Shown here in pieces: positions 30,418-56,065 of a DNA stretch of 64,000 nt (position 1 is its first letter; each line of letters starts with the position of its first letter). The notes below the pieces were generated by a model. The model did no database searches. It worked only from the letters and a program-made list of their open reading frames with translations, and was not told the origin of the DNA. Origin of the DNA: Natrinema salinisoli. GTDB lineage: Archaea; Halobacteriota; Halobacteria; Halobacteriales; Natrialbaceae. Position numbers and translations under genes: made by a program. The stretch is taken from the NCBI RefSeq assembly GCF_020405205.1, contig NZ_CP084469.1:1178001-1242000 (forward strand), given 5' to 3'.

Positions 30418-32373
30418 TTAGATCTCCTCGACGTAGGTGTGCGAATCTGAGAGCGCTTCGGCGTCCTCCCGAAGCAGGGCGACGACGAGACAGTCGACGT
30501 ACTCCTCGAAGTACTCGACGAGATCGGCGATCCGGTTCGAGTCGATCGCCTCGAGCGAATCCAGCAGCATGAACGGGACGACCTCGTAGACGTCGTGGAC
30601 CAGATACCCGGCGAGCGCGAAGACCAGTCCGGTGACCTCCCGTTCGCTCTCCGAGAGGTGGTCGACGGTGTCCTCGTAGGTTCGCCCGTCCTCGGTCGTC
30701 CGAACGATGTGCAGGTCGAACGCGGTCCGCGAGACCTTCCGACGCCCCTCACGGACCGTCTTCTCGCGACGTTCGATCCAGATCCGATCGATGTTCCGGT
30801 ACTCGAGGATCGAGAGAATCGAGTCCATGTGCTCGTTGAAGGCGTCGACGGCGTTCTCCTCGATTCGGTCGACGCGGGTTCTGAGATCGGTCAGCTCGTC
30901 CTCGACGGTTTCACGCCGTTGCGCGAGCTCGTCGCGTTCCTCGATTTGCCCCTCGATTTCGTCGATCCGGGCCTGTACCTCGTCGCGTTCCTCCTCGAGG
31001 TTCTCCCGTTCGAGTTCGAGTCGGTTTCGCTCGCGGTGGGTCTCGATGACGTCGCCGTATTCCGCGTTCTCGAACGTTTCGGCGTCCGATTCGAGGTCGT
31101 CGACGCGTTCCTGCTGGTCTTCGAGGTCGGCCTCGAGATCCTCGATCCGCTGGGCCCGTCGCTCGAGTTCGTCGTCGATCGCCTCGAGTCGCGTTTCGAT
31201 CTCCCCGCGTTTCTGGGATCGCTCGCGGAGCTCCTTCCGCCGAGTAGCGAGCTCGTCGATCTGTTCCTGCAGGTCGCTCCGTTCGTCGAGTTTCTGTTGC
31301 CGGAGCGATCGCAATCGATCGATCGTCGTTTCGATCCGTTCGCGATCGACCTGGGAGCCACACGTCCAGCAAACCACGTCGTCCGAGTCCGGGAGGAGTT
31401 GCTCGGTGATGTCGCCGTCGGTCTCGCCGTCCGACTCGACCGTCTCCTCGAGATCCAGCTCGAACCCGTCCTCGGCGAGTCGCTCCTCGTTGAACCGGAT
31501 CACGCTCTGGAGCTCGCTGACGGTCGTATCGAGCGACCGTTTCCGGGCGCGAAGTTCCTGTACTCGCCCTTCGAGGCGGTCCGGCGATTCCTGCTCGTCG
31601 TCGAACGCCTCGAGCTCTTGCTCGAGCTCGTCGCGTTCCCCCTCCAGTTCGCTGTAGCTCTCCCGTTCGGTCTCGAGGTCGTACTCGATGGATTCGAGCT
31701 CGGTACGGGCTTCCTGGAGATCGGCGAACGCCGATTCGATCTCGTCTTTGCGGGCGCGACTCGCCTCGACGTCGAGATCGAACTCCTCGAGTTCGGTTTC
31801 GAGGGCTTCGATCCGCTCTGTTTTCGTCTCGATCTCGTCCTCGAGCGCGACGCGATCCTCCTCGAGATCGGGGAGTTCGGTATCGAGCCGTGCGAGTTCC
31901 TCGAGACGGTCGTCCAACTCCCGCTTCTCGGCCTCGAGCCTGCTGATTTCGGCCTCAATCTCGTCCGTATCGATCGGGCGCATGATGAGTTCGCGGAGAT
32001 CGTCGCCGGCCCTGACGGCCCGACGCGCCTCGTTCGACTCGAGCAGGAACGCGAAGAGATCCGCGAGCTCCGGGTTCTCGAGGTACGGATCGCCGTCGAA
32101 GACGACCTCACCGTTGCGTCGCTCGAGGGATCGCGTATACCGTTCGTCGTCGAACGTCAATTCGACGGAGCCGGTGTCCGCGTCGCCTTTCAGCGACGAC
32201 CGTCGGCTTCCCAGCGCCGCCATGATGGTCTGGAGAAACGACGTCCGGTTCGTCGCGTTTCGGCCAGTCAGAACGTTCACGCCGGGCTCGAGCAGTACCT
32301 CGGTGCTGTCGATGCCGCCGATATTCTCCGCCCGGACGGTGATCGACGAGGTGACTGACTCCGGAGATGACAT
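30418..32373 (-). CDS. Archaea-specific SMC/Rad50-like ATPase with zinc hook (Sph-type), copy 1
   Basis: A 651-residue protein built like a small Rad50: N-terminal ABC half with 'ENIGGIDS' and a P-loop 'TGRNATNRTS' (about 36-45), a long coiled coil, a central zinc hook 'CWTCGS' (C335/C338), a returning coiled coil, then the ABC signature 'HLSESEREV' and Walker B 'PFMLLDSLEAIDS'. The P-loop lysine is replaced by arginine, as in the paralog at 36730. Such proteins are expected to dimerise through the hook and act on DNA or as scaffolds. It follows an rdfA gene by 61 bases, probably one operon; in Haloferax volcanii rdfA likewise neighbours an SMC-like gene (sph3). ATG 32373 was preferred to a start 8 codons upstream. 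Confidence 0.88.
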   Translation of the reverse strand: MSSPESVTSSITVRAENIGGIDSTEVLLEPGVNVLTGRNATNRTSFLQTIMAALGSRRSSLKGDADTGSVELTFDDERYTRSLERRNGEVVFDGDPYLENPELADLFAFLLESNEARRAVRAGDDLRELIMRPIDTDEIEAEISRLEAEKRELDDRLEELARLDTELPDLEEDRVALEDEIETKTERIEALETELEEFDLDVEASRARKDEIESAFADLQEARTELESIEYDLETERESYSELEGERDELEQELEAFDDEQESPDRLEGRVQELRARKRSLDTTVSELQSVIRFNEERLAEDGFELDLEETVESDGETDGDITEQLLPDSDDVVCWTCGSQVDRERIETTIDRLRSLRQQKLDERSDLQEQIDELATRRKELRERSQKRGEIETRLEAIDDELERRAQRIEDLEADLEDQQERVDDLESDAETFENAEYGDVIETHRERNRLELERENLEEERDEVQARIDEIEGQIEERDELAQRRETVEDELTDLRTRVDRIEENAVDAFNEHMDSILSILEYRNIDRIWIERREKTVREGRRKVSRTAFDLHIVRTTEDGRTYEDTVDHLSESEREVTGLVFALAGYLVHDVYEVVPFMLLDSLEAIDSNRIADLVEYFEEYVDCLVVALLREDAEALSDSHTYVEEI

Positions 32374-32434
32374 GAGTCCCGTTTCTCGCCGCTCCAATAA
32401 ATGTTATTTGGTTACGATCGTTTTCGGGACCCGA

Positions 32435-36729: not shown

Positions 36730-38679
36730 TCAATTCAGTTCAGTGGCCGGAATCTCTTGGTATTCGTCTGTGATTCCGGACGCGTCTTCGGGAAGCAAGG
36801 CGACGACGAGGTACGGGACGTAATCCGCGAAGTACTCGATGAGCTCGGCGATGCGCTCCGAGTCGATCGCTTCCAGCGAATCCAGCAACATAAACGGCAC
36901 CTCTTCGTACACCTCGTGGACTAAATAGCCGGCAAGGCCGACGACCAACCCGATCACTTCGCGCTCGCTTTCGCTCAGGTTGTCCACGGAATCCTCGTAT
37001 ACCGTTCCAGACTCCGACTTCCGAACGATGTGTAGATCGAAGGACGAACTCTCGTTGCGGTCGTTCCGGCGCTCTCCTTTTCGCTCGATCCAGACGCGCG
37101 ATATGTTCCGATAATCGAGCAGTTCTAACACGTCCGCCATGTGCTCGTTGAATTGCGACACCGATCGTGACTCGAGCTCGTCCACTCGACCGCGCTCCTG
37201 TCGTAACTCCTGACGGATCTCGTCCAGTTGGTCTCGAAGCCGCGATTTATCCGGCAGCGATTCTATCTCCTCGATTTCGTCCGTGACCGTCTCTAGTTGT
37301 TCCTGTTTTTGCCCCCGTTCGTACTGGAGTTCGCTGATTTCTTCGTAGGTCTCGAGGAGATCGTTGTTCCGAAGGTCTTCGGTGATCGCGACCTCCCGTT
37401 CGAGTTCGGTGATCGTCTCACGCAGCTCCGAGATCCGTTCCTCGAGCGTTTCGCGTCGCGTTCGCTTCGACTCGAGTTTCGCTTCGACATCGTCGAGCTC
37501 TCGTGTGAGACGTTCTCGCGTGTCGATCGCTTCCCGTATGGATTCCTCCTCGGCGGTTAATTCGTCGATTCGATCCGTCAGATCACCGAGTTCGGCCTGC
37601 TTTTCGGAAACGACACCCCGGAGGTTGTCTAACTGATCTTCTATCGTTCCGCGTTTGGCAGTACTGCCACAGGTCCAGCAAGTAATCTCCTGTTCGTCCG
37701 ACGGGGCGAGTTCCGCGACCGGATCCGCAGTGTCGGTCGTCGAGGCGGGTCCATCCGAACCGCTGTCCGCGAGAACGGTTTCGTTGAAATCGACGATCGA
37801 CGAGAGATCCGCAATCGTATTTTCGAGCTCTCGTTTTTGAGCGCGCAGCGTTCGTAATTCGTCTTGCACTCGTTCGAGGTCCGCCTGGGTATGCTCCGGT
37901 ACTTCTTCCTGCTCGGCACGGAGTTCAGCCGGTCGGTCGCGGAGGGCATCGAGTTCGGCCTCCACCAGTTCGAGCTCGTCTCCCACTTCGCTTACGTCCT
38001 GGCGACGGTCGTCGAGTCGATCGACCAGTTCTTCGGCTTCTTCGGCCATTTCGGCGTTCGCCTCGAATTCGGCCGCCGCTTCTCGAGCCGCGTCGATTCG
38101 ATCGTCGATCGATTCGAGTTCGGTCTCGAGGGTTTGCCGTCGTTCCTCGAGCGTCGGTAATCGCTTCGACTCCTCCTCGACGGTTTCGAGTTCATCGGAT
38201 ATCTCTTCGCGTTCGGTTTGGAGGGTTCGGATCCGTCGTTCGATGGCCTCCGTATCGACCGGTCGCATGATGATGTCGCGGAGGTCGTCCCCTCGTTCGA
38301 CCGCCAGTCGTGCGGGATTGTTTTCGAGTAAGGAAACGAACGGATCGACGAGATCGCTGTCAGTCTCGTACGGATCGCCGCCCACTTCGATCCCGGTGTC
38401 CGTTCGTTCGAACCGTCGACTATAGGTGGTGTCGTCCAGTTTCAAGACGACCTCGCCTTCCGCAGTGTCGCTTTTTAGCGTCGCAGCGGTCCCGCCGAGG
38501 ACACCGTTGATCGCTTGCAAGAGACTGGTCCGGTTCGTCGCGTTTCGTCCCGTGAGAAGCGTTTCCCCCTTTCGAATGGTGAGCGAACAGTCTTCGATAC
38601 CGCCGATATTTCTCACTTCGATCCGAGTCCTATCGGTAACTGTCGCCTCTTCGTTTCCCGCACTCGTCGTTGACATCAT
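36730..38679 (-). CDS. Archaea-specific SMC/Rad50-like ATPase with zinc hook (Sph-type), copy 2
   Basis: A 649-residue paralog of the protein at 30418-32373 with the same plan: 'VRNIGGIED', arginine-substituted P-loop 'TGRNATNRTS' (about 43-52), coiled coil, zinc hook 'CWTCGS' at about C334/C337, coiled coil, signature 'NLSESEREV' and Walker B 'PFMLLDSLEAIDS'. Head domains are much more alike between copies than the coiled coils. It lies 208 bases downstream of rdfA copy 2; the gap is longer than in module 1 and could hold an internal promoter. Two adjacent ATG codons (38679 and 38676) are possible starts. Confidence 0.88.
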   Translation of the reverse strand: MMSTTSAGNEEATVTDRTRIEVRNIGGIEDCSLTIRKGETLLTGRNATNRTSLLQAINGVLGGTAATLKSDTAEGEVVLKLDDTTYSRRFERTDTGIEVGGDPYETDSDLVDPFVSLLENNPARLAVERGDDLRDIIMRPVDTEAIERRIRTLQTEREEISDELETVEEESKRLPTLEERRQTLETELESIDDRIDAAREAAAEFEANAEMAEEAEELVDRLDDRRQDVSEVGDELELVEAELDALRDRPAELRAEQEEVPEHTQADLERVQDELRTLRAQKRELENTIADLSSIVDFNETVLADSGSDGPASTTDTADPVAELAPSDEQEITCWTCGSTAKRGTIEDQLDNLRGVVSEKQAELGDLTDRIDELTAEEESIREAIDTRERLTRELDDVEAKLESKRTRRETLEERISELRETITELEREVAITEDLRNNDLLETYEEISELQYERGQKQEQLETVTDEIEEIESLPDKSRLRDQLDEIRQELRQERGRVDELESRSVSQFNEHMADVLELLDYRNISRVWIERKGERRNDRNESSSFDLHIVRKSESGTVYEDSVDNLSESEREVIGLVVGLAGYLVHEVYEEVPFMLLDSLEAIDSERIAELIEYFADYVPYLVVALLPEDASGITDEYQEIPATELN

Positions 38680-41848: not shown

Positions 41849-43123
41849 TTAGTCCCCGGATTTCGTTCCTGTCGGACTCGTTTCCCACCACCCGGCTCGA
41901 TCGAGGGTGAACAGGAGGCCGGCCGAGAGCACCATGCCGGTCAGAGCGAACGTCGCGAGGACGACGAAGAACATCGCCGTCGAGAACCCGCCGAGGACGA
42001 ACCCGCCGATCGCGATGCTCGCCGCGCCGAGTCCGAACTCGCCGAGGTAGGTGTAGCCGTAGGAGAGGCCGCGCGTGTTAGCAGGCGTATGGACTGCGAC
42101 CGCCTCCTGATAGAACGGCTGAATCGCGAAGAGGAAGAAGCCGAGCACGGCACAGAGAACGATAACGGGGAGGAGACCCATCGACGTAACCGGAATGAAC
42201 GTGAGCGCGAGGACGCAGAGGACGGCGAAGATCGCCATCAGTCCTCGTTCGGCGGACACGCGATTCGTGAGTTTGCCACCGGCGTACTGGCCGCCCATTC
42301 CGATGACGAGCAGGCCGACGTAGATGTAATCGCCGGGTTCGATCCCTTCGAGTCCGGCCGAGAGCGTCACGTCGTCCATGGCGGGGAGGCCGTGGAGAAT
42401 TTCCGGGAGATACGTGAGCATTCCTCGGTAGAAGAGCCCTTCGAATGTAACGATGACGAAGACCGCGGCGAACGCGCTCGCGAACAGCACTCGCGAGTTG
42501 GAGATGAACTCGGAAAGCGAGAGGGCGTCGTCCGTGGTGACGTCGGCGTCGTCTTCGGCTGCGACCGGGTCGAAGTCGGCCTGGAGACCGTAGACGGCCG
42601 CGACGAGACCCGGAATCGCGAGAAGTGCGGCGACGAGTTGCCACTGGTCGAGAACGAACAGGAGCGTCGCTGCGGCGAACGGGCCGAGGGCGATACCGGC
42701 GTTGCCGGCGATTCCGTGCCACGCGAAGACGGTGCCTCGCTCCTCGACGCCGGTGCTGATCAGGGCGAGTCCTGCAGGGTGGTAGACGCTCGCTGCGATC
42801 CCCCAGCAGATCAGCCCGATCGCGACGGTGTAAATCGACGTCGAGAGCGCGAGTAGGAGGAACGCACCGCTCATTCCAGCGAGACAGAGCAAGATGAGTC
42901 GCTTCGGACCGAACCGATCGGCGAGGATTCCGCCGGGCAGCGCGCCGAGCCCGAACGGGGCGTATCCTAGCGCGACGATGACTCCGATCAGTGCGACGGA
43001 AACGTCGAATTCCGCGAGCCAGACGACCAGAAAGATCGGAATCGACGTTTCGAACCAGTGGACGAGCGAGTGGCCTGCCATCGTAAAGCTAGCGATCGCC
43101 CGGTCGTTTTTGTCAAGTCCCAT
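41849..43123 (-). CDS. Major facilitator superfamily (MFS) transporter
   Basis: A 424-residue permease with about 12 membrane helices. The loop 2-3 motif 'GGILADRFGPKRLI' (about 60-73) is the MFS signature. A central cytoplasmic loop (about 185-210) is acidic. The family includes uptake and efflux systems; its position beside catabolic genes and its divergence from the thiolase-like gene (240 bases) suggest organic-acid uptake, not proven. ATG 43123 starts just before the first helix. Confidence 0.88.
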   Translation of the reverse strand: MGLDKNDRAIASFTMAGHSLVHWFETSIPIFLVVWLAEFDVSVALIGVIVALGYAPFGLGALPGGILADRFGPKRLILLCLAGMSGAFLLLALSTSIYTVAIGLICWGIAASVYHPAGLALISTGVEERGTVFAWHGIAGNAGIALGPFAAATLLFVLDQWQLVAALLAIPGLVAAVYGLQADFDPVAAEDDADVTTDDALSLSEFISNSRVLFASAFAAVFVIVTFEGLFYRGMLTYLPEILHGLPAMDDVTLSAGLEGIEPGDYIYVGLLVIGMGGQYAGGKLTNRVSAERGLMAIFAVLCVLALTFIPVTSMGLLPVIVLCAVLGFFLFAIQPFYQEAVAVHTPANTRGLSYGYTYLGEFGLGAASIAIGGFVLGGFSTAMFFVVLATFALTGMVLSAGLLFTLDRAGWWETSPTGTKSGD

Positions 43124-43330
43124 AATGTGTAGAGTGTCTTTCGTCGAATACCACTCCACCCGGTTACTTATCGATTGTGAACTCGACGACGCACATCGGA
43201 GCCGATACCGATCGTAAATTCAAAACAGTTGTTTCTCTGTTGGATAATATACGAAAATATGGGTTCTGTACGAATATAATCCATACATTGACTGACTCCT
43301 CTCGATCGCTTCTGCAGCGTCATGCAAATG

Positions 43331-43363: not shown

Positions 43364-44530
43364 ATGACGGAGACTACCATTCCAACCGTTGCAGGTATCG
43401 GTTCCGTTCCGAACGGGACGCATTCGGTACCGGAGCGAGACCTCGCATTGCGTGTCGTTCGAGATGCCCTCGAGGACGCGTCGCTCGAACTCTCGGCCGT
43501 CGACGGGCTCTATATGCCCGCTCCGCGCCCGTGGACGCCGCAGGGGTTCTTTTCGACCTATCTGCTGCACGTGCTCGGACTCGACGTCGATCGCTCGCTC
43601 GAGGTATCGACGGGAGGGACCAGCGGGGGGAACGCGTTTCACTCCGCAGTGTCGGATATCCGTGACGGGACGGTCGAGACGGCGCTCGTGCTTGCGGTGG
43701 AGCGGAACTCGATCGTCGAGACGACGGGCCCGTACTTCGATTACATCCTGAAGTCGTTCGACGCGGAGTTCGAATCGCCGATCGGCATGACCGTTCCGGC
43801 GGCGTACGCACAGAGCATGCAGCGGTACGCGTACGAGTACGGGATCGATCGCGACGATCTCGCCGACGTCGTCGTCAAAAACCGCGAGAACGGGGCCGTC
43901 AATCCGAACGGACTCTTCGACGAGAGTCCGTCGCGGGACGACGTACTCGACGCACGGTTGATCGCGGACCCGATCCGACTGTTCGACTGTCCGGCCCCGT
44001 GCGACGGTGCAGCTGCGATACTACTCACCGCGGACGACCTCGACGAGTCGGCATCGCCGCGGATAGCCGTCGACGGAACCGGATACCACCACACGGCGAG
44101 CCACTTCCTGATGAGTCGGGAGACGTCGATCACGGAACTGCCGGCCGTCAGACGTGCCGCGACCACGGCGACCGATCGTGCCGGCGTTTCGATCGCTGAT
44201 ATCGACGTCTTCGAACCATACGCGCCGTTTCCGCACATCGAAGCGATCGTGACGGAAGAGCTCGGGCTCGCCGAACGCGGCCGCGGTGTCGACGCCTGTC
44301 TCGAGGGCCACACTGCACCGGACGGACCGTTTCCGATAAGCCCGTCGGGCGGCTGTCTCGGACGGGGCCATCCGCCGATGGTGACGCCGCTGCTCAACTA
44401 CGTCGAGGCCGTGAAACAGCTTCGCGGGACGGCGTCGACGCAGGTTCCCGAGGCGGAGCGCGTCCTCACGACGGCGGAACACGGCCACGTCAACGGCGTA
44501 ACCGCGACCGTATTCGCGACGGAGGTGTGA
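43364..44530 (+). CDS. Thiolase-like (SCP-x/lipid-transfer type) protein lacking the nucleophilic cysteine
   Basis: A 388-residue thiolase-fold protein. At the place of the usual nucleophile elbow it reads 'EVSTGGTSGGNAFHSA' (about 80-95), with no cysteine. The later 'SPSGGCLGRGHPP' glycine-rich loop is kept, while the C-terminal Cys motif is replaced by 'EHGHVNG'. Cys-less thiolase homologues paired with a DUF35 protein include retro-aldolases such as Ltp2 of steroid side-chain breakdown, so C-C bond cleavage of an acyl-CoA is a better guess than thiolysis. The DUF35 gene follows 3 bases later. ATG 43364 is fixed by the TATA box. Confidence 0.85.
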   Translation: MTETTIPTVAGIGSVPNGTHSVPERDLALRVVRDALEDASLELSAVDGLYMPAPRPWTPQGFFSTYLLHVLGLDVDRSLEVSTGGTSGGNAFHSAVSDIRDGTVETALVLAVERNSIVETTGPYFDYILKSFDAEFESPIGMTVPAAYAQSMQRYAYEYGIDRDDLADVVVKNRENGAVNPNGLFDESPSRDDVLDARLIADPIRLFDCPAPCDGAAAILLTADDLDESASPRIAVDGTGYHHTASHFLMSRETSITELPAVRRAATTATDRAGVSIADIDVFEPYAPFPHIEAIVTEELGLAERGRGVDACLEGHTAPDGPFPISPSGGCLGRGHPPMVTPLLNYVEAVKQLRGTASTQVPEAERVLTTAEHGHVNGVTATVFATEV

Positions 44531-44533
44531 TCG

Positions 44534-44926
44534 ATGGAGCCCTACACGCGACCGTTCTGGGAGTCCCTTCGGGACGACGTGGTCCTGATTCACGCCTGCG
44601 AGAGCTGCGACGAGCGGTTCTTCCCCCCGAGTCCGATCTGTCCACACTGTCACTCGACGAACGTCGACTGGGTGGAGACGACAGGACGGGGGACGCTCTA
44701 CTCGTTTACCCGAACCCACGCGACGGCGGCGGCGTTCGACGACGAGCTCGTGATCGGGCTCGTGGAACTCGCTGACGGACCGACACTACTCGCGCCGATC
44801 GACGAGTCGTACGCCGCCCTCGAGATCGGCGACGACGTCCGTATCGAGGCCGCAGAGTACGACGTCGAGTACGATCGCGGCTGGCTCGAAGACTATCCGT
44901 TCTTCGCGGCGCGGCCGCTCGACTGA
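44534..44926 (+). CDS. DUF35 zinc-ribbon/OB-fold protein, partner of the thiolase-like protein
   Basis: A 130-residue protein. The N-terminal rubredoxin-like zinc ribbon has C22/C25 ('ACESCDERFF') and C36/C39 ('ICPHCHS'), followed by an OB-fold that can bind acyl-CoA ('GRGTLYSFTRTH', 'VIGLVELADGPTLLAPI'). DUF35 proteins form complexes with thiolase-fold enzymes and channel CoA substrates. It is immediately downstream of the thiolase-like gene (3-base gap), so the two surely form one unit. Confidence 0.9.
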   Translation: MEPYTRPFWESLRDDVVLIHACESCDERFFPPSPICPHCHSTNVDWVETTGRGTLYSFTRTHATAAAFDDELVIGLVELADGPTLLAPIDESYAALEIGDDVRIEAAEYDVEYDRGWLEDYPFFAARPLD

Positions 44927-44975: not shown

Positions 44976-46982
44976 TTAGTCTTCGACGGCGTTGATGGTT
45001 TCCGTCGTCGATCGCTGGCTCAGCCGCCCGCGGATCGGTTTCTGGAGTTGGAGGCCCATCAGAACGAAGATGACTGCGACGCAGCCGAGACGGATCGTGG
45101 TGCCCGGATAGACCATCGCGAGGACGCCGAGGACGAAGAAGACGGCCCTGAGTGGGTACTCGACGAACAGACTCTCGCGTAGGAACGTCCCGTAGTAGTT
45201 GAGGCCGTGAGAGATTCCCAGTGCGCCGGCCAGTGCGATCATGCCGGAGAAGAACGTCTCGAGGCCGAAGCCACCGACGACGATCTCGGGATTGTAGATG
45301 AACGCGAACGGCAGGACGTAGATCGGTGCGGAAATCTTCAGGGCCTCGTGGGCCGTCCGCCAGAAGTTACTCTCGGCGATCCCCGTCGCAACGACGACGG
45401 CGATCGCAATCGGGGGCGTCAGTCCGGAGAGAATCGCGGCGTACAGCACGAAGAAGTGCGCCGCGAGGTCGGGGACGAAGAACTGCTGGATCAGTGCCGG
45501 CGCGATCAGCGCCGCGACGATGACGTACGCGGCGACCGTCGGCATCCCCATTCCGAGGACGATCGAGATGACCATCGCGAGGACGACCGCAGTCAGCATG
45601 ACGCCGCCGGAGAGGTCAAGCAACGCCAGCGAGAGGATTCCCGGAATGCCCGACGCGGTGAAGACGTCGACGACACCGTTAATCGCGGCGATGATGATCG
45701 CGATCGGTGCGAGGATCATCGCTCCCTCTCTGAAGCCGTTCGCCGCGTCGCCGAGTAGACTGACGAACTCGGCCACGAGGTCACCGCCCCCCACGGCCGT
45801 CTGGATCAGCGGGAATCCGAAGCCGGTGACGAACATCGCGATGATGGTGTACAGCGCGGCCGTGAGCACCGTGTACTGGAGGACGCCGAGGACGTAGATC
45901 AGGAGGGCGAACGGAATTCCGAACCGAAGACACTGGATAACGAACTCCCTCTGGGACATCTGCTCCTCGAACTGACTCTCCACGTCGATCTTGGTCGCCT
46001 GGCCTCGGAGTTGTCCGATGCCCTTGTAGTGGACGGCGAAGGTGACAGACCCGTAGAAGATCATGGCGGGAATGATACCTGCGATGATCACCTCGACGTA
46101 CGTGATACCGAGCAACGACGCCATGACGAACGCCGCAGCGCCCATGATCGGCGGCATGATTTGCCCGCCCGTCGAGGCAACGGATTCGATCCCGCCTGCT
46201 GTCTCCCCCTTCATTCCCGTCTCCTTCATGAGCGGAATCGTGAACGATCCGGTGATCGCCGTGTTCGCCGCCTGGCTACCGGTGATCGAGCCGATGATGA
46301 TGCTCGAGGTCACCGCGGAGAGGGCGACGCCCGATCTGACGTAGTTGGCCGACCGGAGTCCGATCCGCATGATGAGGTCGAACGCCCCGAAGCCGCGCAT
46401 CAGCCCTGCGTATAGCAAGAATAGGGCGACCCACGTCGCGATAATTCTGGAGATCGAACCGTAGACCCCCTGAAAGTCGAGCACCATGATACTCATCATG
46501 CGGTTAACGCTGAATCCGGCGTGGCGCAGGATTCCCGGGACGTAGTTACCGTAGAGCCCGTAGAGTATCACGCCAACGATCACGGCCAGAAACGTGATTC
46601 CGTAGGCTCGGTACGACAGGTACAGGATGACGAGGAAGAACGCGATGGCGATCGCGTACTCGTAGCCGAACGCCGTACCGACGCGAACACGCAGCAACTC
46701 CCTGTAGTTCAGGATCAAGTACACCGTCGTTCCGGCGGTGATGATCGCGGAGAGAGTCAGGCCGGCTAACCCCAATTTGTCACCGTCTTCGTACGCTTCG
46801 ATGAGTTCGTTTCCGAGATAGACGAGCATGACCGATCCGAGAAAGGTGACGGTAAATAGAATTCGCTGGATTCCCTGTGTGAACGCGAAGTACAGGATCC
46901 ACAACCAGGTCAAGATAGCGAGTCCGGTAACTACGTCGTTGGCGATTTCTATTCGGTCCTTATCTGCTGTTGAATAAACCAT
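44976..46982 (-). CDS. TRAP transporter fused permease (DctQM-type)
   Basis: A 668-residue membrane protein with many helices. The N-terminal four-helix part corresponds to the small DctQ subunit, and the long C-terminal part to DctM ('GSITGSQAANTAITGSFTIPLMKETGM', 'GMGMPTVAAYVIVAALIAPAL'). It forms a sodium-driven uptake system with the TAXI binding protein encoded 27 bases upstream. Substrates of TAXI systems are organic acids or amino acids; here unknown. It converges with the DUF35 gene. Confidence 0.93.
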   Translation of the reverse strand: MVYSTADKDRIEIANDVVTGLAILTWLWILYFAFTQGIQRILFTVTFLGSVMLVYLGNELIEAYEDGDKLGLAGLTLSAIITAGTTVYLILNYRELLRVRVGTAFGYEYAIAIAFFLVILYLSYRAYGITFLAVIVGVILYGLYGNYVPGILRHAGFSVNRMMSIMVLDFQGVYGSISRIIATWVALFLLYAGLMRGFGAFDLIMRIGLRSANYVRSGVALSAVTSSIIIGSITGSQAANTAITGSFTIPLMKETGMKGETAGGIESVASTGGQIMPPIMGAAAFVMASLLGITYVEVIIAGIIPAMIFYGSVTFAVHYKGIGQLRGQATKIDVESQFEEQMSQREFVIQCLRFGIPFALLIYVLGVLQYTVLTAALYTIIAMFVTGFGFPLIQTAVGGGDLVAEFVSLLGDAANGFREGAMILAPIAIIIAAINGVVDVFTASGIPGILSLALLDLSGGVMLTAVVLAMVISIVLGMGMPTVAAYVIVAALIAPALIQQFFVPDLAAHFFVLYAAILSGLTPPIAIAVVVATGIAESNFWRTAHEALKISAPIYVLPFAFIYNPEIVVGGFGLETFFSGMIALAGALGISHGLNYYGTFLRESLFVEYPLRAVFFVLGVLAMVYPGTTIRLGCVAVIFVLMGLQLQKPIRGRLSQRSTTETINAVED

Positions 46983-47009
46983 GTATGGCGGTGACGGATT
47001 CTGCAGGTG

Positions 47010-48062
47010 TTATTCGTCGCCGCGAGTCCAGCTGTCGTCCCAAACGTCGTTCTCTTCGTACCAATCCGCGGCACCTGGGTGAATCGGGATCTCGTCCGTG
47101 TGGGTCAGTGCGAACGTGAAGTTCGACGGGTCGGACCAGTCGAGGATCGTCGGGTTCGCCTCCTGCATCGACTCGTAGTTGTTGTGGCAGATCTCCATCA
47201 GGTCGTAGACGGCGTCTGCGGAGATGTCCGGACTGAAGTAGTACGGGTAGGTCTCCGTCCACGTGTGCTTCGGGAAGTCACCCTCGACGTCCTGCTCCCA
47301 GCCGCCGATCTCGTCGACTTCCTCGTAGCCAGCGCCTGCGAAGTCCTGTGCCGCTTGCACGTACTCGTCGGTCATCTCGATGGGTCTGACGTCGACGCGC
47401 GAGTCGATCTCGGACGCCCACGAGGGCAGTTGGGTGTAGTTCGAGGTGTACACGATGAACGCCTCGGCTCGGCCCTCGGACAGTGCGCTGGCCGCTTGAC
47501 TCGTCTCCACGTTGACCACGTTCTCGGAGAGTCCCTCCCAGAGACCGGCCTCGCCGTACATCTCTTCCGTCATCGCACGCAGTCCCCAGCTGGCGGGGAG
47601 ACAGTAGACGTTCCTCCCGGCGAGGTCGTCGGTCGTCTGGATGTCGCTGTCTTCCAGGGCCATCCAGTACAGGTTGAGCGAGAGGTGACCGAACCCGAGT
47701 TGCGGGAATTCGGAAACCGGATCCTCCGAGAACGGGCCCGTCTCGGTGAGGGCCTGATTCATGATGTAATTCCCGGCGGAGTAGGAGTTGAGCTCCCCGT
47801 CAGCGTACAGTCGGATGGACTGCGGATCACCGCCCGCGTCCTGCGTAATGAAGTTCAGGTAGTCCGATTGCTGACTCACTACCCGCTGAATCGCCTGTGA
47901 GTTACCGTAGGTCGACGATCCGGAAGACGACGAGCCGACCGTCAAGTCGACCTGTTCTTGACCGTCACCGCCACCACCGAGGCACCCCGCAAGCGAAAGC
48001 GTCCCGAGTCCGGCCGTTCCTTTCAAGACGCTTCTGCGTGTTTGCCTATCGTTATCAAACAT
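47010..48062 (-). CDS. TAXI family TRAP transporter solute-binding lipoprotein
   Basis: A 350-residue precursor. The Tat motif 'QTRRSVLKG' and lipobox 'LSLAGC' put the lipid anchor at C27. The mature part is a periplasmic-binding-type fold of the TAXI group ('DLTVGSSSSGSSTYGNSQAIQRVVS'). It captures solute outside the membrane for the fused permease encoded next. Its start at 48062 is supported by a TATA box 23-32 bases before, a leaderless arrangement. ATG 48062 also gives the expected short basic n-region. Confidence 0.92.
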   Translation of the reverse strand: MFDNDRQTRRSVLKGTAGLGTLSLAGCLGGGGDGQEQVDLTVGSSSSGSSTYGNSQAIQRVVSQQSDYLNFITQDAGGDPQSIRLYADGELNSYSAGNYIMNQALTETGPFSEDPVSEFPQLGFGHLSLNLYWMALEDSDIQTTDDLAGRNVYCLPASWGLRAMTEEMYGEAGLWEGLSENVVNVETSQAASALSEGRAEAFIVYTSNYTQLPSWASEIDSRVDVRPIEMTDEYVQAAQDFAGAGYEEVDEIGGWEQDVEGDFPKHTWTETYPYYFSPDISADAVYDLMEICHNNYESMQEANPTILDWSDPSNFTFALTHTDEIPIHPGAADWYEENDVWDDSWTRGDE

Positions 48063-48383: not shown

Positions 48384-49778
48384 ATGACGACGGCAGAATC
48401 ACACGCGTTCCTCGAGCGTCACGACGCGGCGTTTCTCGACGATCTCCGATCGCTGCTCTCCCAGCCGTCGATCAGCGCGACCGGAGAGGGGATCGACGAC
48501 TGCGCGGCGATGGTCCGGCAGTCGTGTCTCGAGTACGGCTTCGACGACGCGGAGATCGTCGAAACGCCCGGTCGGCCGGCCGTTATCGCTCACGCGTCCG
48601 CCGATATCGAACCGGCGGGGGCGGGGCGGACGGTGTTGCTCTACGGCCACTATGACGTCCAGCCGGCGACCGCCTCCGAGTGGCGTTCGCCCCCGTTCGA
48701 ACCGACCGTTCGCGAGGGACCGGACGGAACCGATCGCCTCTACGCTCGCGGCGCCGGCGACAACAAGGGACAGTGGTTCGCACACCTCTGTGCCGTTCGT
48801 GCGCTCCGCGAGACGTCGGGGCTCCCGACCGACGTCACCCTCGTGATCGAAGGCGAGGAAGAAAGCGGCAGCGAACACCTCGAGTGGCTCGTTCGGGAAC
48901 ACCGCGACGAACTCGGCGCGGACGTGGCCATCGTGGCCGACGGTCCCATCGACGAATCGGGCCGACCGCACGTGCTGCTCGGCTCGCGGGGGTTGCTCTA
49001 CGTCGACATCGAGGCGACGGGGGCGAATCGCGATCTCCATTCGGGAAACTTCGGCGGGCCGGTTCCCAACCCGGCGACGGCCGTCGTCGACCTGCTCTCG
49101 TCGCTCCGGACCGACGACGGTCGGATCGCACTCGAGGGGTTCTACGACGACGTGCGCCCGCTCACCGATCGCGATCGCGAGGTGCTCGAGGCGATTCCCG
49201 TCGACGAGGAGGCGGTGAAAGCGGACCTCGGACTCTCGGCGCTCGCGACGGACCAGGGCGAGAGCTACACCGAACGCCTGCTCTGTCGCCCCAATTTGAA
49301 CGTCGCCGGGCTGGACGCCGGCTACGATGGGGAGGGAATGAAGACCGTGTTACCGTCGCGCGCTCGAGCGAAGATCGACTTCCGTCTGGTCGCCGACCAG
49401 GACCCGGACGAGGTTTTCGAGTCGCTTTCCCGTCACGCCGAGGCGCAGGTACCGCCGGGGATCGACGTGACGCTCTCGCGCGTGGCGGCGATGGCTCCTC
49501 AGCGGACGCCGGCGGACAGTCCGGTCGTCGAGCCGATGCTGCGGGCCGTCCGCGAGGCGTGGCACGAGGAGCCGATTCTCAAACCATCGCTGGGCGGCTC
49601 CGTGCCGACGTACGTCTTCGCCGACGCCCTCGACGTCCCGTGTCTGGTCGTTCCCTACGCGAACGCAGACGAGAACAACCACGCGCCCGACGAAAACATC
49701 GCGCTCTCCTGTTTCCGCGCCGGTGCCCGGACCACCGTCGAACTGCTCGCGGAGTACGCCGACGCGACCCTCGAGTGA
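48384..49778 (+). CDS. M20 family dipeptidase/metallopeptidase
   Basis: A 464-residue dinuclear zinc peptidase of the M20/ArgE-DapE family. Metal ligands and catalytic residues are visible: H89 and D91 ('LYGHYDVQPA'), D126 ('GAGDNKGQ'), catalytic Glu and ligand Glu at about 158-159 ('EGEEESGS'), Asp in 'VIVADGPI'-like wording and the late His in 'ENNHAPDENI'. The dimerisation domain spans about 205-330. The length and 'GGSVPTYVFADAL' fit carnosine-type dipeptidases. It would release amino or beta-amino acids for the island's aminotransferases. ATG 48384 is preferred to a GTG six codons upstream. Confidence 0.92.
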   Translation: MTTAESHAFLERHDAAFLDDLRSLLSQPSISATGEGIDDCAAMVRQSCLEYGFDDAEIVETPGRPAVIAHASADIEPAGAGRTVLLYGHYDVQPATASEWRSPPFEPTVREGPDGTDRLYARGAGDNKGQWFAHLCAVRALRETSGLPTDVTLVIEGEEESGSEHLEWLVREHRDELGADVAIVADGPIDESGRPHVLLGSRGLLYVDIEATGANRDLHSGNFGGPVPNPATAVVDLLSSLRTDDGRIALEGFYDDVRPLTDRDREVLEAIPVDEEAVKADLGLSALATDQGESYTERLLCRPNLNVAGLDAGYDGEGMKTVLPSRARAKIDFRLVADQDPDEVFESLSRHAEAQVPPGIDVTLSRVAAMAPQRTPADSPVVEPMLRAVREAWHEEPILKPSLGGSVPTYVFADALDVPCLVVPYANADENNHAPDENIALSCFRAGARTTVELLAEYADATLE

Positions 49779-52399: not shown

Positions 52400-53581
52400 A
52401 TGCAACCATTAGCGGACATTACCGTGATCGACGCGACGCAGGCGCTCGTCGGTCCGTTCGCGGGCCAGACGCTCGGCGACCTCGGGGCGGACGTGATCAA
52501 GATCGAACGGCCGGGTCACGGGGACCTCACGCGGACGTACTCGCCGCAGTACGGCGAGGAACTCTCCGCGTACTTCGTCAGCACGAACCGAAACAAGCGC
52601 AGCGTCAGTCTGGATCTCACGACGGCCGAGGGACAGGCCATCCTTCGCGACCTGGTCGAGGAGGCGGACGTCTTCATCCAGAACTTCTCGCCCGGGAACG
52701 AGGAGCGGTTCGGTGCCGAGTACGAGACCCTCTCGGAAATCAACGAGGAGCTGGTCTACTGCGACATCTCCGGGTACGGGCCGGACAGCCCCTACGCCGA
52801 TCGGAAGTCCTTCGACATCATTCTCCAGGGTGAATCGGGGATGATGAGCGTCACCGGCACCGAGGACCAGCCCGCCCGGATCGGCGTCTCGATCTGTGAC
52901 CTGGCGGGCGCGATGACGTCGATCTACTCGATCCTCACCGCGCTGTACCACCGCGAGCGAACCGGGGAAGGCGAGTACATCGACGTTTCGCTACTGGACG
53001 CCAGCTTTCAGTTCCTCGGCTACCACGTCTCGAACTACTTCGCGACGGGCGAGAATCCAACGCGGATGGGAACCCGCCATCCCAGTCTCATGCCCTACCA
53101 GGCGTTCGAGACGGTCGACTCACACATCGTCGTCGGCGTCGTAAGCGAACACATCTGGCCGAAGTTCTGCCGAGCGGTCGACCGCGAGGAGTGGATCGAC
53201 GACGAGCGCTACGCGACCTTCTCCGATCGCGTCGAAAACCGGGACGAACTCGATCCCGTCCTCGACGACATGTTCGCGGAGCGGACGACCGACGAGTGGA
53301 TGAGCATCCTCCAGGCCGAGGACGTCCCCTGTACGCCCGTTCAGGACGTTGAAACGCTGGTCGACGATCCGCACATCGAGACGCGAGATATGATCGCCGA
53401 GATGGACCACCCCGATCTCGGGACGTTCAAATCGCCGGCCAATCCGGTCAACTTCGGTTCGCTCGAGACCGACGCGGAGGGGCCACCGCCCCGCCTCGGC
53501 GAACACACCGACGAGGTGCTGGCGGAACTGGGCTACGACGAGGCCGAGCTCGAGCGGTTACAGGCGGAGGATGTCATCTAG
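52400..53581 (+). CDS. CaiB/BaiF (family III) CoA-transferase
   Basis: A 393-residue family III CoA-transferase, which moves CoA between carboxylic acids. The opening 'PLADITVIDATQALVGPFAGQTLGDLGADVIKIE' wording is characteristic, and the catalytic aspartate is D167 ('SICDLAGAMTS'). Family members act on carnitine, oxalate/formate, succinate and others. It could activate the acid imported by the neighbouring transporters. ATG 52400 is preferred to a GTG two codons upstream; it follows the gamma-glutamyltransferase gene by 79 bases in the same direction. Confidence 0.92.
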   Translation: MQPLADITVIDATQALVGPFAGQTLGDLGADVIKIERPGHGDLTRTYSPQYGEELSAYFVSTNRNKRSVSLDLTTAEGQAILRDLVEEADVFIQNFSPGNEERFGAEYETLSEINEELVYCDISGYGPDSPYADRKSFDIILQGESGMMSVTGTEDQPARIGVSICDLAGAMTSIYSILTALYHRERTGEGEYIDVSLLDASFQFLGYHVSNYFATGENPTRMGTRHPSLMPYQAFETVDSHIVVGVVSEHIWPKFCRAVDREEWIDDERYATFSDRVENRDELDPVLDDMFAERTTDEWMSILQAEDVPCTPVQDVETLVDDPHIETRDMIAEMDHPDLGTFKSPANPVNFGSLETDAEGPPPRLGEHTDEVLAELGYDEAELERLQAEDVI

Positions 53582-53637
53582 GAAGGGCGACCGCCCGTCG
53601 CGATGGGTCGACCGATCGAATGGCATCGGCTGCGCGT

Positions 53638-54075
53638 CTAGACGATCGTGACCGGCGAATCGGCGTTGAGAATGATGTCTTGGGTGACGCTTCCGAACAC
53701 GGCTTTGCCGACCGGTGATCGTTTTCGGCCGGGAATGACGATCGTATCGGCGTCGATCGACTCGGCGTAGTCGACGATCTCGTCCGCGGGCTCGCCGTGA
53801 CGGCGCTCGATGTCGACGTCAACGCCGGCCGCGGCGAGGTGATCCCGAGCGGTCGCCACGGAGTCCGGGAAACTGTCCTCGTCGTAGAGGTCTTCCGATC
53901 GAACGTTGCCGCCGTCGTCGACCGCCTTGAACTCCTTGAAGACGTTTATTATCGACACCGAAATCTCGTCGAGATCGGCGCCGAGACTGGACTCGTCGCC
54001 GAGGTCCGTCACGAACTCCGCTGCAGTTATCGCTCGCGACTCGTCCTCGTCGATCGGGATGACGATCTGGTACAT
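53638..54075 (-). CDS. UspA universal stress protein
   Basis: A 145-residue single-domain Usp. The N-terminal strand 'MYQIVIPIDED' and the C-terminal nucleotide-binding motif 'GRKRSPVGKAVFGSVTQ' indicate the ATP-binding subgroup. ATG 54075 fits the family start. It lies between the CoA-transferase and the 3-hydroxyacyl-CoA dehydrogenase-like gene, 75 bases from the latter on the same strand. Role unclear; Usp genes in catabolic clusters often answer to starvation or stress. Confidence 0.9.
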   Translation of the reverse strand: MYQIVIPIDEDESRAITAAEFVTDLGDESSLGADLDEISVSIINVFKEFKAVDDGGNVRSEDLYDEDSFPDSVATARDHLAAAGVDVDIERRHGEPADEIVDYAESIDADTIVIPGRKRSPVGKAVFGSVTQDIILNADSPVTIV

Positions 54076-54150
54076 GAGCTTCAGTGAGGGTTGTTGTTCC
54101 AGCCATATAGTCGTACTCGCAGGTGCGCCGAGTAATGACGGATGAACCAC

Positions 54151-55158
54151 TCACGGATCCGGTTCCGACTCGTCGGGGACCTCGGGCGGACCGCGTGCGG
54201 CCCGGTACACCTCGAGTTGATCGAGGAGTCGCTGGTCACGTTCGGCCGTCACCCGTTCGATATCGGCGTCCGACCAATCGTAGACGCCCCGGTCGGTTTT
54301 CACGCCGTGTCGACCCTCTTCCACGAGTTCGGAGAGGACGGACGCCGGTTCTCGTTGCCGATCGATCTCCTCGAGCAGTTCCGTGAGCACCTTGTGATGG
54401 ATGTCGAGTCCGGAATGGTCGCCCTTCTCGAGCACGCCCAGCGTCGGCAGCCGAAAGCCGAACGTCCCCTTGACCGCGCGGTCGATGTCCTCGGCGCTGG
54501 CGACGCCCGACTCGAGGAGGGCCCACGCCTCGCGAGCCATCGCCGACTGGATTCGATTGGCGATGAACCCCGGGATATCCCGTTCGACGACGACCGGATC
54601 CTTGCCGATGGACTCGAGGAACGCCGTGGCGGTGTCGACCGTCTCGTCGGTCGTTCGGTCGCCGTAGACGACCTCGACGACGGGGACGATGTGAGCGGGG
54701 TGGAACCAGTGCATCCCGCAGAAGCGTTCGGGGTGGGAAAGGGAGGACGCGAGTTCGGTGATCGACAGCGACGACGTGTTCGTCGCGATGGTCGCGGTCG
54801 TCGGTGCCTCGCGTTCGATCTCCTCGTAGACGGCCGCTTTCACCTCGCGGTCTTCGGTCACCGCTTCGATGGTCAGGGGCGCGTCTCCGACGGCCGCCGG
54901 CAGCTCGGTCGCGTACGTGACGCGATCGCGGACGGCCGAGACGTCAGTCGTGTCCCCCACGCCGCGGTCGATGACTGTCCCGACGGTCGATCGGATCTCG
55001 TTCTCCGCGTCCGCCAGCGCGTCCTCGTCGACGTCGAACAGCGTGATGGGCTGGCCGCCGACCGCGCTGGCCACGGCGATGTTCCGTCCCATCGTTCCGG
55101 CACCGATGATCGCGGGACGGGGCGCTGCCTCCCGATCCTCCGACGGCTGATCGTCCAT
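54151..55158 (-). CDS. 3-hydroxyacyl-CoA dehydrogenase-like NAD-dependent enzyme
   Basis: A 335-residue protein with an N-terminal Rossmann fold ('AIIGAGTMGRNIA', about 16-28), the catalytic segment 'CGMHWFHPAHIVPVVEVV' with its His, 'DIPGFIANRIQSAM', and a C-terminal helical domain. The family covers 3-hydroxyacyl-CoA, 3-hydroxybutyryl-CoA and L-carnitine dehydrogenases. The divergently transcribed beta-keto acid cleavage enzyme (61-base gap) suggests that this enzyme makes the beta-keto acid from a beta-hydroxy acid; that pairing is my inference. Confidence 0.88.
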   Translation of the reverse strand: MDDQPSEDREAAPRPAIIGAGTMGRNIAVASAVGGQPITLFDVDEDALADAENEIRSTVGTVIDRGVGDTTDVSAVRDRVTYATELPAAVGDAPLTIEAVTEDREVKAAVYEEIEREAPTTATIATNTSSLSITELASSLSHPERFCGMHWFHPAHIVPVVEVVYGDRTTDETVDTATAFLESIGKDPVVVERDIPGFIANRIQSAMAREAWALLESGVASAEDIDRAVKGTFGFRLPTLGVLEKGDHSGLDIHHKVLTELLEEIDRQREPASVLSELVEEGRHGVKTDRGVYDWSDADIERVTAERDQRLLDQLEVYRAARGPPEVPDESEPDP

Positions 55159-55219
55159 GGTCCACCCTCTCGGGGCCGTCCATTAATGCTTTCGTGGTGG
55201 CCCGTCTGGAATACGATAG

Positions 55220-56065
55220 ATGAGTTACCAGAATTACCTCGAGGGCGGGAAGCTGATCCTGACCGTCCCGACGACGGGCGGCGTGCAGGGGAAGGAAGCG
55301 AACCCGAACCTGCCGGAACAGCCCGACGAGATCGCCGAGGCGGCCCGGGAGTGCGAGAAACTCGGCGCGGCGATCGTTCACCTGCACGGCCGGGACGAAC
55401 ACGGCGAGCGCGACGCGGGTCGCCTCCAGGAGATCAACGCTGCCGTTCGCGAGCGCTGCGACGATATCATCATCCAGAACACGACCGGCGGGACGGGGAT
55501 CCCGCTCGAGCAGCGAGCCGCGGGGATCCGAACTGATCCGCTCCCGGAGATGGCGTCGCTCGACATGGGGCCGATGAACCGGTATCAGCACATCACCTCG
55601 GAGAACACGCGCCACATGATCGACACGCTGGCCGCGGAGATGCAGGAGAAGGGGATCAAACCGGAGATGGAGGTGTTCAACAACGGTCACATGAACGAGG
55701 TTCACCGCCTCATCGACGAGGGGCTGCTCGAGGAGCCGTACTACATCAACATCATCTTCGGACCGGGGACGCTGACGCCGCCGACGCCGGAGAACATGGT
55801 CAACATGGTGAACAACCTCCCGGAGAACTCGATCTTCAATGTGCTGGCGATCGGCCCGCACCAGCTCCCGCTGACGACGATGGGGATCGTGATGGGCGGT
55901 CACGTTCGCATCGGCATGGAGGACAACCTCTACTACCGCCGCGGCGAACCCGCTGAGAGCAACGCCCAGCTCGTCGAGCGAACGGTTCGCATCGCCGACG
56001 AACTCGATCGAGAGCTCGCGACGCCCGCGGAGGCGCGCGAATTGCTCGGGATTCCGACCCGGTGA
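55220..56065 (+). CDS. Beta-keto acid cleavage enzyme (BKACE, DUF849)
   Basis: A 281-residue TIM-barrel enzyme of the BKACE family (founder: 3-keto-5-aminohexanoate cleavage enzyme). It condenses a beta-keto acid with acetyl-CoA and splits it to acetoacetate and a new acyl-CoA. The zinc ligands H54 and H56 and adjacent R58 lie in 'VHLHGRDEHG', and 'GGHVRIGMEDNLYY' carries the late Arg and Glu of the active site. Substrates in the family include 3-keto-5-aminohexanoate and 3-dehydrocarnitine. The substrate here is open. It is divergent from the dehydrogenase-like gene. Confidence 0.93.
   Translation: MSYQNYLEGGKLILTVPTTGGVQGKEANPNLPEQPDEIAEAARECEKLGAAIVHLHGRDEHGERDAGRLQEINAAVRERCDDIIIQNTTGGTGIPLEQRAAGIRTDPLPEMASLDMGPMNRYQHITSENTRHMIDTLAAEMQEKGIKPEMEVFNNGHMNEVHRLIDEGLLEEPYYINIIFGPGTLTPPTPENMVNMVNNLPENSIFNVLAIGPHQLPLTTMGIVMGGHVRIGMEDNLYYRRGEPAESNAQLVERTVRIADELDRELATPAEARELLGIPTR

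Follow-up and report, generated by a model that had tools for sequence, protein, structure and literature searches.

A cysteine-less thiolase-fold protein and its DUF35 partner in Natrinema salinisoli: a candidate retro-aldolase pair from a clade shared by archaea and Pseudomonadota

The haloarchaeon Natrinema salinisoli carries a pair of adjacent genes, P0001 and P0002, which encode a thiolase-fold protein lacking the nucleophilic cysteine and a DUF35 protein. From comparisons of sequences we propose that the two gene products form a CoA-dependent retro-aldolase with a Tyr/His/Glu site of its own, a reading that we hold to be rather probable. The wider proposal is more tentative and only about as credible as its opposite: among the thiolase-fold retro-aldolases, P0001 would stand for a branch of its own that occurs in Pseudomonadota, haloarchaea and Asgard archaea, has this Tyr/His/Glu site, unlike Ltp2 and Sal, and catalyzes the last step of a non-oxidative form of beta-oxidation, in which non-steroid acids are activated, desaturated, hydrated and split. 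The support consists of the loss of the cysteine, the conservation of other residues, the phylogeny, the predicted fold and the association with pathway genes in bacteria, the association in haloarchaea being looser. The first-pass annotation of this DNA had likened the pair to the Ltp2-DUF35 aldolases of steroid side-chain breakdown; this was partly supported, being right in kind and wrong in detail.

The window, i.e., the whole stretch of 64,000 nucleotides that was analyzed, corresponds to C1:1178001-1242000 of a 4.7-Mb genome. P0001 (43364..44530, + strand) encodes a protein of 388 aa, with an in-frame ATG at 43322, 42 bases upstream, as a possible alternative start. P0002 (44534..44926, + strand, 130 aa) begins in the same frame after a gap of 3 bases (44531-44533). 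P0001 matched the Pfam models Thiolase_C_1 (E 2.8e-30) and Thiolase_N (9.3e-7). Because the NCBIfam models that matched it scored far below their cut-offs (best 210.5 bits versus 420), P0001 falls into none of the named NCBIfam thiolase families. Its nearest named relative is a protein of Natrinema salsiterrestre with 96% identity. The DUF35 partner is intact, as had been noted before: P0002 matched PF12172 and PF01796, the models for the ChsH2 zinc ribbon and OB fold, above their cut-offs, it contains the zinc-ribbon pattern CxxC-x10-CxxC, and its best match in the PDB was ChsH2(DUF35), 6ok1_B (E 2.5e-13).

The elbow of P0001 reads VSTGGTSGG (residues 81-89; codons at 43604..43630, + strand), and in a phmmer alignment its second Gly, Gly85, lies opposite the Cys of AACASGG in the Pyrococcus thiolase 7yvy. 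The corresponding column holds Cys in 15 and Ser in one of 16 classical thiolases. Residues within the family were counted in 37 distinct members, to which a set of 44 sequences had been reduced, the truncated L055 being left out; an elbow Cys was found in none of them and Gly85 in all 37. Since Gly85 is retained throughout and tblastn placed a DUF35 match after the member in 34/34 family contexts (a few loci counted twice), the arrangement is more than chance, and the missing nucleophile first read from VSTGGTSGG is confirmed.

Besides Gly85, the residues Glu284, Tyr286, Pro288, Glu293, Arg334, His336 and Glu372 were invariant in the 37 distinct members. The thiolase motif HDxF/NEAF is absent and reads YxPF in 30 and YxPC in seven of them; in P0001 it lies in EPYAPF (codons 284-289, 44213..44230, + strand), which comprises Tyr286 and Pro288 and was aligned with Sal and Ltp2. 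The GHP histidine of thiolases is retained as His336 (GRGHP; codon 44369..44371, + strand), 50 residues past Tyr286, in 37/37 members. Glu372 (AEHGH; codon 44477..44479, + strand) occupies the MAFFT column in which classical thiolases have their second conserved Cys (15 Cys and one Ser in 16 thiolases), an acid-base residue in these enzymes; this match is only suggestive because the profile-profile alignment ended at residue 338. His291, His373 and His375 occur in 24/24 haloarchaeal members and in 0/13 others.

The replacement of every thiolase catalytic residue except the GHP histidine would also fit an inactive structural or regulatory subunit that acts with DUF35 as a scaffold for neighboring acyl-CoA enzymes. 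A dead enzyme, however, would not need replacements that are invariant in 37/37 members across archaea and bacteria, and no second thiolase label was found within 9 kb of the member in seven bacterial loci, so that we consider an inactive subunit improbable. A genuine thiolase, with some other residue or a different Cys (Cys209 or Cys331) as its nucleophile, appears even less likely. Cys209 is present in 24/24 distinct haloarchaeal members and Cys331, which adjoins GRGHP, in 23/24, but no Cys is invariant among the 37 distinct members (Cys209 in 28, Cys331 in 25, Cys213 in 23, Cys312 in 22). Moreover, the segment of ordinary thiolases opposite Cys209 frequently bears Cys, Tyr replaces the His of HDxF, and the position of P0001 in the trees also argues against a thiolase. 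As far as the alignment tells, the family thus appears to have no alternative catalytic Cys; the presence of one was among the two findings that had been set beforehand as speaking against an aldolase.

The other was clustering with proven thiolases, and this was not seen in the rooted trees. A first tree placed 26 members in one clade (100/98), separate from thiolases, Sal, Ltp2 and 4u4e. After rooting on eight classical thiolases, the family (21 rows) was recovered at 100/97 and an aldolase group of six rows (Sal, Ltp2, IpfD, 4u4e and the proteins L003 and L004 of the same genome) at 100/99; in this full tree both were sisters in a 27-row clade (100/99) with all thiolase rows outside. Within the six-row group, experimental support for an aldolase exists only for Sal, Ltp2 and IpfD (papers cited below), not for 4u4e, L003 and L004. 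When 108 alignment columns around the motifs were removed, the 27-row clade still held at 99/96; it then split three ways, into the aldolase group (99/97), 19 family members (93/86) and the two Asgard rows, and the family was no longer resolved as a single clade. Both rooted trees were calculated without L039, L041, L046, L053, L057, L009 of the same genome and the truncated L055, and 8 of the 16 classical thiolases were omitted. Three further proteins of this genome, L005, L008 and L009, are thiolase-like with Ser in place of Cys, and the trees place them with Sulfolobus ST0096 (4yzo).

The structural model of P0001 had a pLDDT of 81.7, with values below 50 in stretches between residues 116 and 141, at 206-211 and at 246-251. 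It shows a thiolase fold, as VIA-align superimposed it on 6esq with Z 50.0 and rmsd 2.1 over 368 aligned residues. The Z values to Ltp2 and Sal were 46.6 and 46.0, and for this predicted model the range from 50.0 to 46.0 does not separate thiolases from aldolases. The archaeal DUF35-linked acetoacetyl-CoA thiolase type (6esq; 7yvy) shares with P0001 the fold (Z about 50) and a GHP-type His, and 6esq is a DUF35 complex like the predicted P0001-P0002 pairing; these thiolases, however, retain the Cys and HDxF and fall outside the clade of the P0001 family.

For Sal, Tyr302 is described as the proposed base and Cys304 as the acid, and for Ltp2 Tyr294 as base and Tyr344 as acid, in PMC12329534. Tyr286 of P0001 lies at the position of Sal Tyr302 and Ltp2 Tyr294, and Pro288 at that of Sal Cys304 and Ltp2 His296. 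The spacing of 50 between Tyr286 and His336 equals that of Tyr294-Tyr344 in Ltp2 and of Tyr302-Gln352 in Sal. Judged from these alignments, P0001 retains the catalytic-base Tyr of the aldolases and not their acid residues: it has the Tyr of the YD[HC][FY] motif, but A-P where the aldolases have D-[HC]. The absence of the acids Cys304 and Tyr344 is an argument against the retro-aldolase proposal.

The bile-acid aldolase Sal-Shy(DUF35) of Comamonas testosteroni (PDB 9myr) has the same combination of thiolase fold and DUF35 partner, and its Gly89 at the nucleophile position aligns with Gly85; the base Tyr302 is also common. It differs from P0001 by Cys304 instead of Pro288, Gln352 instead of His336 and Gln347 instead of Cys331, shares 27% identity and belongs to a separate clade. 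Ltp2-ChsH2(DUF35) of Thermomonospora curvata (PDB 6ok1) likewise has the elbow Gly, the base Tyr294 and the DUF35 partner, but the acid Tyr344 where P0001 has His336 and YDHF where P0001 has YAPF; it is 24% identical and also falls into a separate clade. Fold, type of partner and base Tyr would all be compatible with an archaeal Ltp2 or Sal, i.e., a steroid side-chain aldolase. Nevertheless P0001 stands outside the Ltp2/Sal group, the acid residues are missing, and a survey of more than 8,000 genomes reports no archaeal steroid degraders (PMC4810484). A steroid side-chain aldolase is therefore highly improbable. Of the likeness to Ltp2-DUF35 aldolases, the position outside the thiolases and the base Tyr stood, while the assignment to the Ltp2/Sal type itself gave way to that of a sister group of putative aldolases without Cys304, Tyr344 and the YDxF motif.

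A non-steroid counterpart is IpfD-IpfE of ibuprofen degradation (pIBU218), a Cys-less thiolase-fold protein with the base Tyr (YDAF) encoded beside an OB-fold gene; ipfD was taken as L074:3640-4827 (- strand), assigned from gene order. IpfD carries Tyr at the position of His336, is 26% identical to P0001 and groups with Ltp2 (89/92), and its OB-fold partner has no CxxC zinc ribbon, unlike P0002. An ipfD insertion mutant lost growth on ibuprofen according to PMC9195938, where the cleavage to propionyl-CoA is termed a retro-aldolase step and linked to ipfDE, the product of which is also termed a thiolase. The kind of reaction is thus already known, since this step is a non-steroid precedent; what is new is this clade, with the residues that mark it and the members it has in archaea. 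A description of this clade was sought in titles and abstract openings of the open-licence literature, and none was found there.

YDSF proteins (4u4e of Sphaerobacter and L003 and L004 of the same genome) resemble P0001 in being Cys-less with Tyr for His; they differ by the motif YDSF, fall with Ltp2 and Sal, and their aldolase function is putative. L003 and L004 have Thr in the Glu372 column, and L004 has a DUF35 of its own. The earlier statement that an aldolase of this type would be new in a halophilic archaeon needs care, since the same genome has two Cys-less YDSF proteins that group with Ltp2, Sal and 4u4e. Past the window end and about 21 kb downstream, L110:3475-4982 (window-extended 65475-66982) encodes a second Cys-less thiolase-like protein with YDSF and its own DUF35, which groups with 4u4e, Ltp2 and Sal; the third, a YDSF protein as well, is L003.

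The reaction that we infer would start from an acid activated by a CoA-transferase or ligase. An acyl-CoA dehydrogenase would then oxidize the acyl-CoA to the enoyl-CoA, which a MaoC- or crotonase-type hydratase would hydrate. P0001 would split the resulting 3-hydroxyacyl-CoA at Calpha-Cbeta. The products would be an aldehyde or ketone and, as the short acyl-CoA, acetyl- or propionyl-CoA, and the route would involve neither oxidation to a 3-ketoacyl-CoA nor an acyl-enzyme. Tyr286 might act as the base that takes the proton from the beta-hydroxyl, and His336 and/or Glu372 might stabilize and protonate the enolate. P0002 presumably forms a complex with P0001 and would help to shape the substrate pocket, as DUF35 does in Sal.

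P0001 might instead be a Cys-less decarboxylase or acyltransferase of thiolase fold, which would bind an acyl-CoA and form an enolate, e.g., from malonyl-CoA or a beta-keto acid, and would not cleave 3-hydroxyacyl-CoA. Cys is the catalytic residue in PhlC-type acyltransferases. PhlC- and MucABC-type acyltransferases share the fold, but the title of a structure entry, CsATase C88S, points to a Cys in PhlC-type enzymes. According to PMC12329534, TbSLP, which also has no nucleophile, decarboxylates malonyl-CoA very slowly (0.005 per second), and Sal is described there as not decarboxylating malonyl-CoA. The bacterial gene sets described below look catabolic, and the family groups with aldolases in the trees. 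We regard a decarboxylase or acyltransferase as unlikely, though less so than the other alternatives.

In Pseudomonadota, the genes expected for the retro-aldolase route surround the family member. Within 9 kb, DUF35 and an acyl-CoA dehydrogenase are encoded at 7/7 bacterial loci, and so is at least one of CaiB and an NDP-forming CoA ligase; the ligase is present in 4/7, CaiB in 5/7, MaoC in 6/7 and a TTT- or TRAP-type importer gene in 4/7 loci. The best match to the acyl-CoA dehydrogenase of Pacificitalea lies 47-3818 bases from the member in all seven genomes or records, one of which is the query's own, with 1-31 matches each. The top MaoC match is no more than 9 kb from the member in 5/6 other records and sits on another contig in G293. 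A 3-hydroxyacyl-CoA dehydrogenase label was found within 9 kb of the member in 0/7 loci, where a divergent bacterial enzyme could be missed by the archaeal labels; three annotated bacterial gene tables likewise list none. This gene set follows the logic of steroid side-chain cleavage, i.e., dehydrogenase, hydratase and aldolase. Because it is fixed in Pseudomonadota, the system is directly testable there. Near the Achromobacter member, L061:15494-17182 encodes an FAD oxidoreductase with sub-threshold matches to models of 3-ketosteroid dehydrogenase and 4-oxocyclohexenecarboxylate dehydrogenase. An FAD oxidoreductase with 65% identity to it is encoded in L062, about 2 kb beyond the member of Cupriavidus necator. 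These oxidoreductases could hint at an alicyclic substrate.

The haloarchaeal picture is less uniform. Up to 9 kb from P0001, measured center to center, neither an acyl-CoA dehydrogenase nor a hydratase nor CaiB was detected; a CaiB-type CoA-transferase lies just outside (52400..53581, + strand; 7.9 kb from the P0001 end), a possible CoA activation step. The lack of pathway partners beside the window gene counts against the retro-aldolase proposal, as does a 3-hydroxyacyl-CoA dehydrogenase just beyond the gene set of L084. L084 is an ortholog with 79% identity in the same genus, and its set spans 5.2 kb in the order CaiB, acyl-CoA dehydrogenase, one small ORF, DUF35, the L084 ortholog itself and MaoC. 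The ortholog of its acyl-CoA dehydrogenase in our genome (85%, next best 39%) was found at C1:1251358-1252491, 29 kb downstream of P0001; it adjoins a crotonase-type gene, and a 3-hydroxyacyl-CoA dehydrogenase is encoded 5 kb away. The same stretch holds orthologs of CaiB (86%, over the part held) and 3-hydroxyacyl-CoA dehydrogenase (84%) of L084 as well as of a YDSF-type Cys-less thiolase and its DUF35 (87% and 73%). It contains no close MaoC ortholog, the best in the genome being 50% identical and located at 1758350.

Neighborhoods were compared with 40 control stretches from three haloarchaeal genomes. Because the context labels were derived in part from member loci, the raw count of 8/20 loci with acyl-CoA dehydrogenase is inflated; a set of 14 loci was therefore used, which omits the label donors (window context, L057, L058, L059, L084) and L044, a near-copy of L057. 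Among the omitted loci, the dehydrogenase is present in L084 and L059 and not in the window, L044, L057 and L058. In the 14-locus set, acyl-CoA dehydrogenase occurred near 6/14 members versus 3/40 controls (Fisher p 0.006), and together with hydratase or CaiB at 6/14 loci versus 1/40 controls (p 0.0007). 3-Hydroxyacyl-CoA dehydrogenase was not depleted (2/14 versus 3/40, p 0.39). Only one of six distinct Asgard loci had an acyl-CoA dehydrogenase-like neighbor, and a scan of the Asgard neighborhoods L092 and L094 revealed no pathway. One ORF in the former, L092:11436-13199 (- strand) from an Asgard-phylum genome, matched a Ras-family GTPase as well as an M20 peptidase and is a possible fusion.

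P0001 is flanked by a divergent MFS transporter gene (41849..43126, - strand), by a TRAP fused permease with a TAXI-type substrate-binding protein (44976..48056, - strand), a possible importer, and by a gene for an M20-family peptidase (48384..49778, + strand), a recurrent neighbor of haloarchaeal members. Across 20 haloarchaeal loci, label donors included, MFS transporter genes were found in 8, M20 hydrolase in 7, TRAP/TAXI in 6 and gamma-glutamyltransferase in 5, compared to 2, 0, 0 and 0 of the 40 controls. These neighbors may point to the import of conjugated acids. An itaconate-type substrate was considered from a RipB/Ich-like MaoC and an acetyl-CoA hydrolase/transferase 7-9 kb off the member in Halomarina BCD28, and similar genes occur near L089; this guess was dropped because the genes are not adjacent, are found at few loci and are absent near the window gene. 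The window also has a cluster of carnitine or keto-acid type at 52400-56065, which comprises genes for a beta-keto acid cleavage enzyme (BKACE), CaiB and a 3-hydroxyacyl-CoA dehydrogenase. A role of P0001 in this group at 52-56 kb was also considered and found no firm tie.

The family spans haloarchaea, Asgard archaea and Pseudomonadota. Orthologs are present in at least 14 of 293 genomes of the haloarchaeal order, our genome included, with 56-100% identity, after which the values drop to at most 38%. At least 2 of 398 genomes in the phylum of G293 and at least 6 of 195 in that of G294 contain members; these counts are lower bounds, as some of the first-look candidates per genome were scored. 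A contig scan with two peptide patterns of the haloarchaeal alignment, which misses members without them, yielded 18 loci, including one alphaproteobacterium and Asgard archaea at 32-37% identity. The members of Cupriavidus, Achromobacter, Roseomonas and Pacificitalea are located on plasmids. A profile of 15 members gave 551-608 bits for the member in each of 13 genomes or records, most of these members being rows of the profile themselves, and 307 bits for the best other protein; two more Asgard members scored 428 and 455 bits.

Annotated members carry the name 'thiolase family protein', which suggests the wrong chemistry for them. Should these proteins be aldolases, the class known from the breakdown of steroids and of ibuprofen would extend to archaea, to other acids and to different acid-base residues. 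The switch from Cys to Gly and from His to Tyr might then be older than steroid catabolism, and the pathway would be a little-known route for the breakdown of carbon chains. Elsewhere in the window, 30418-32397 and 36730-38679 (both - strand) encode two similar proteins of about 650 aa that by eye have an SMC/Rad50-type coiled-coil look and a CWTCG motif.
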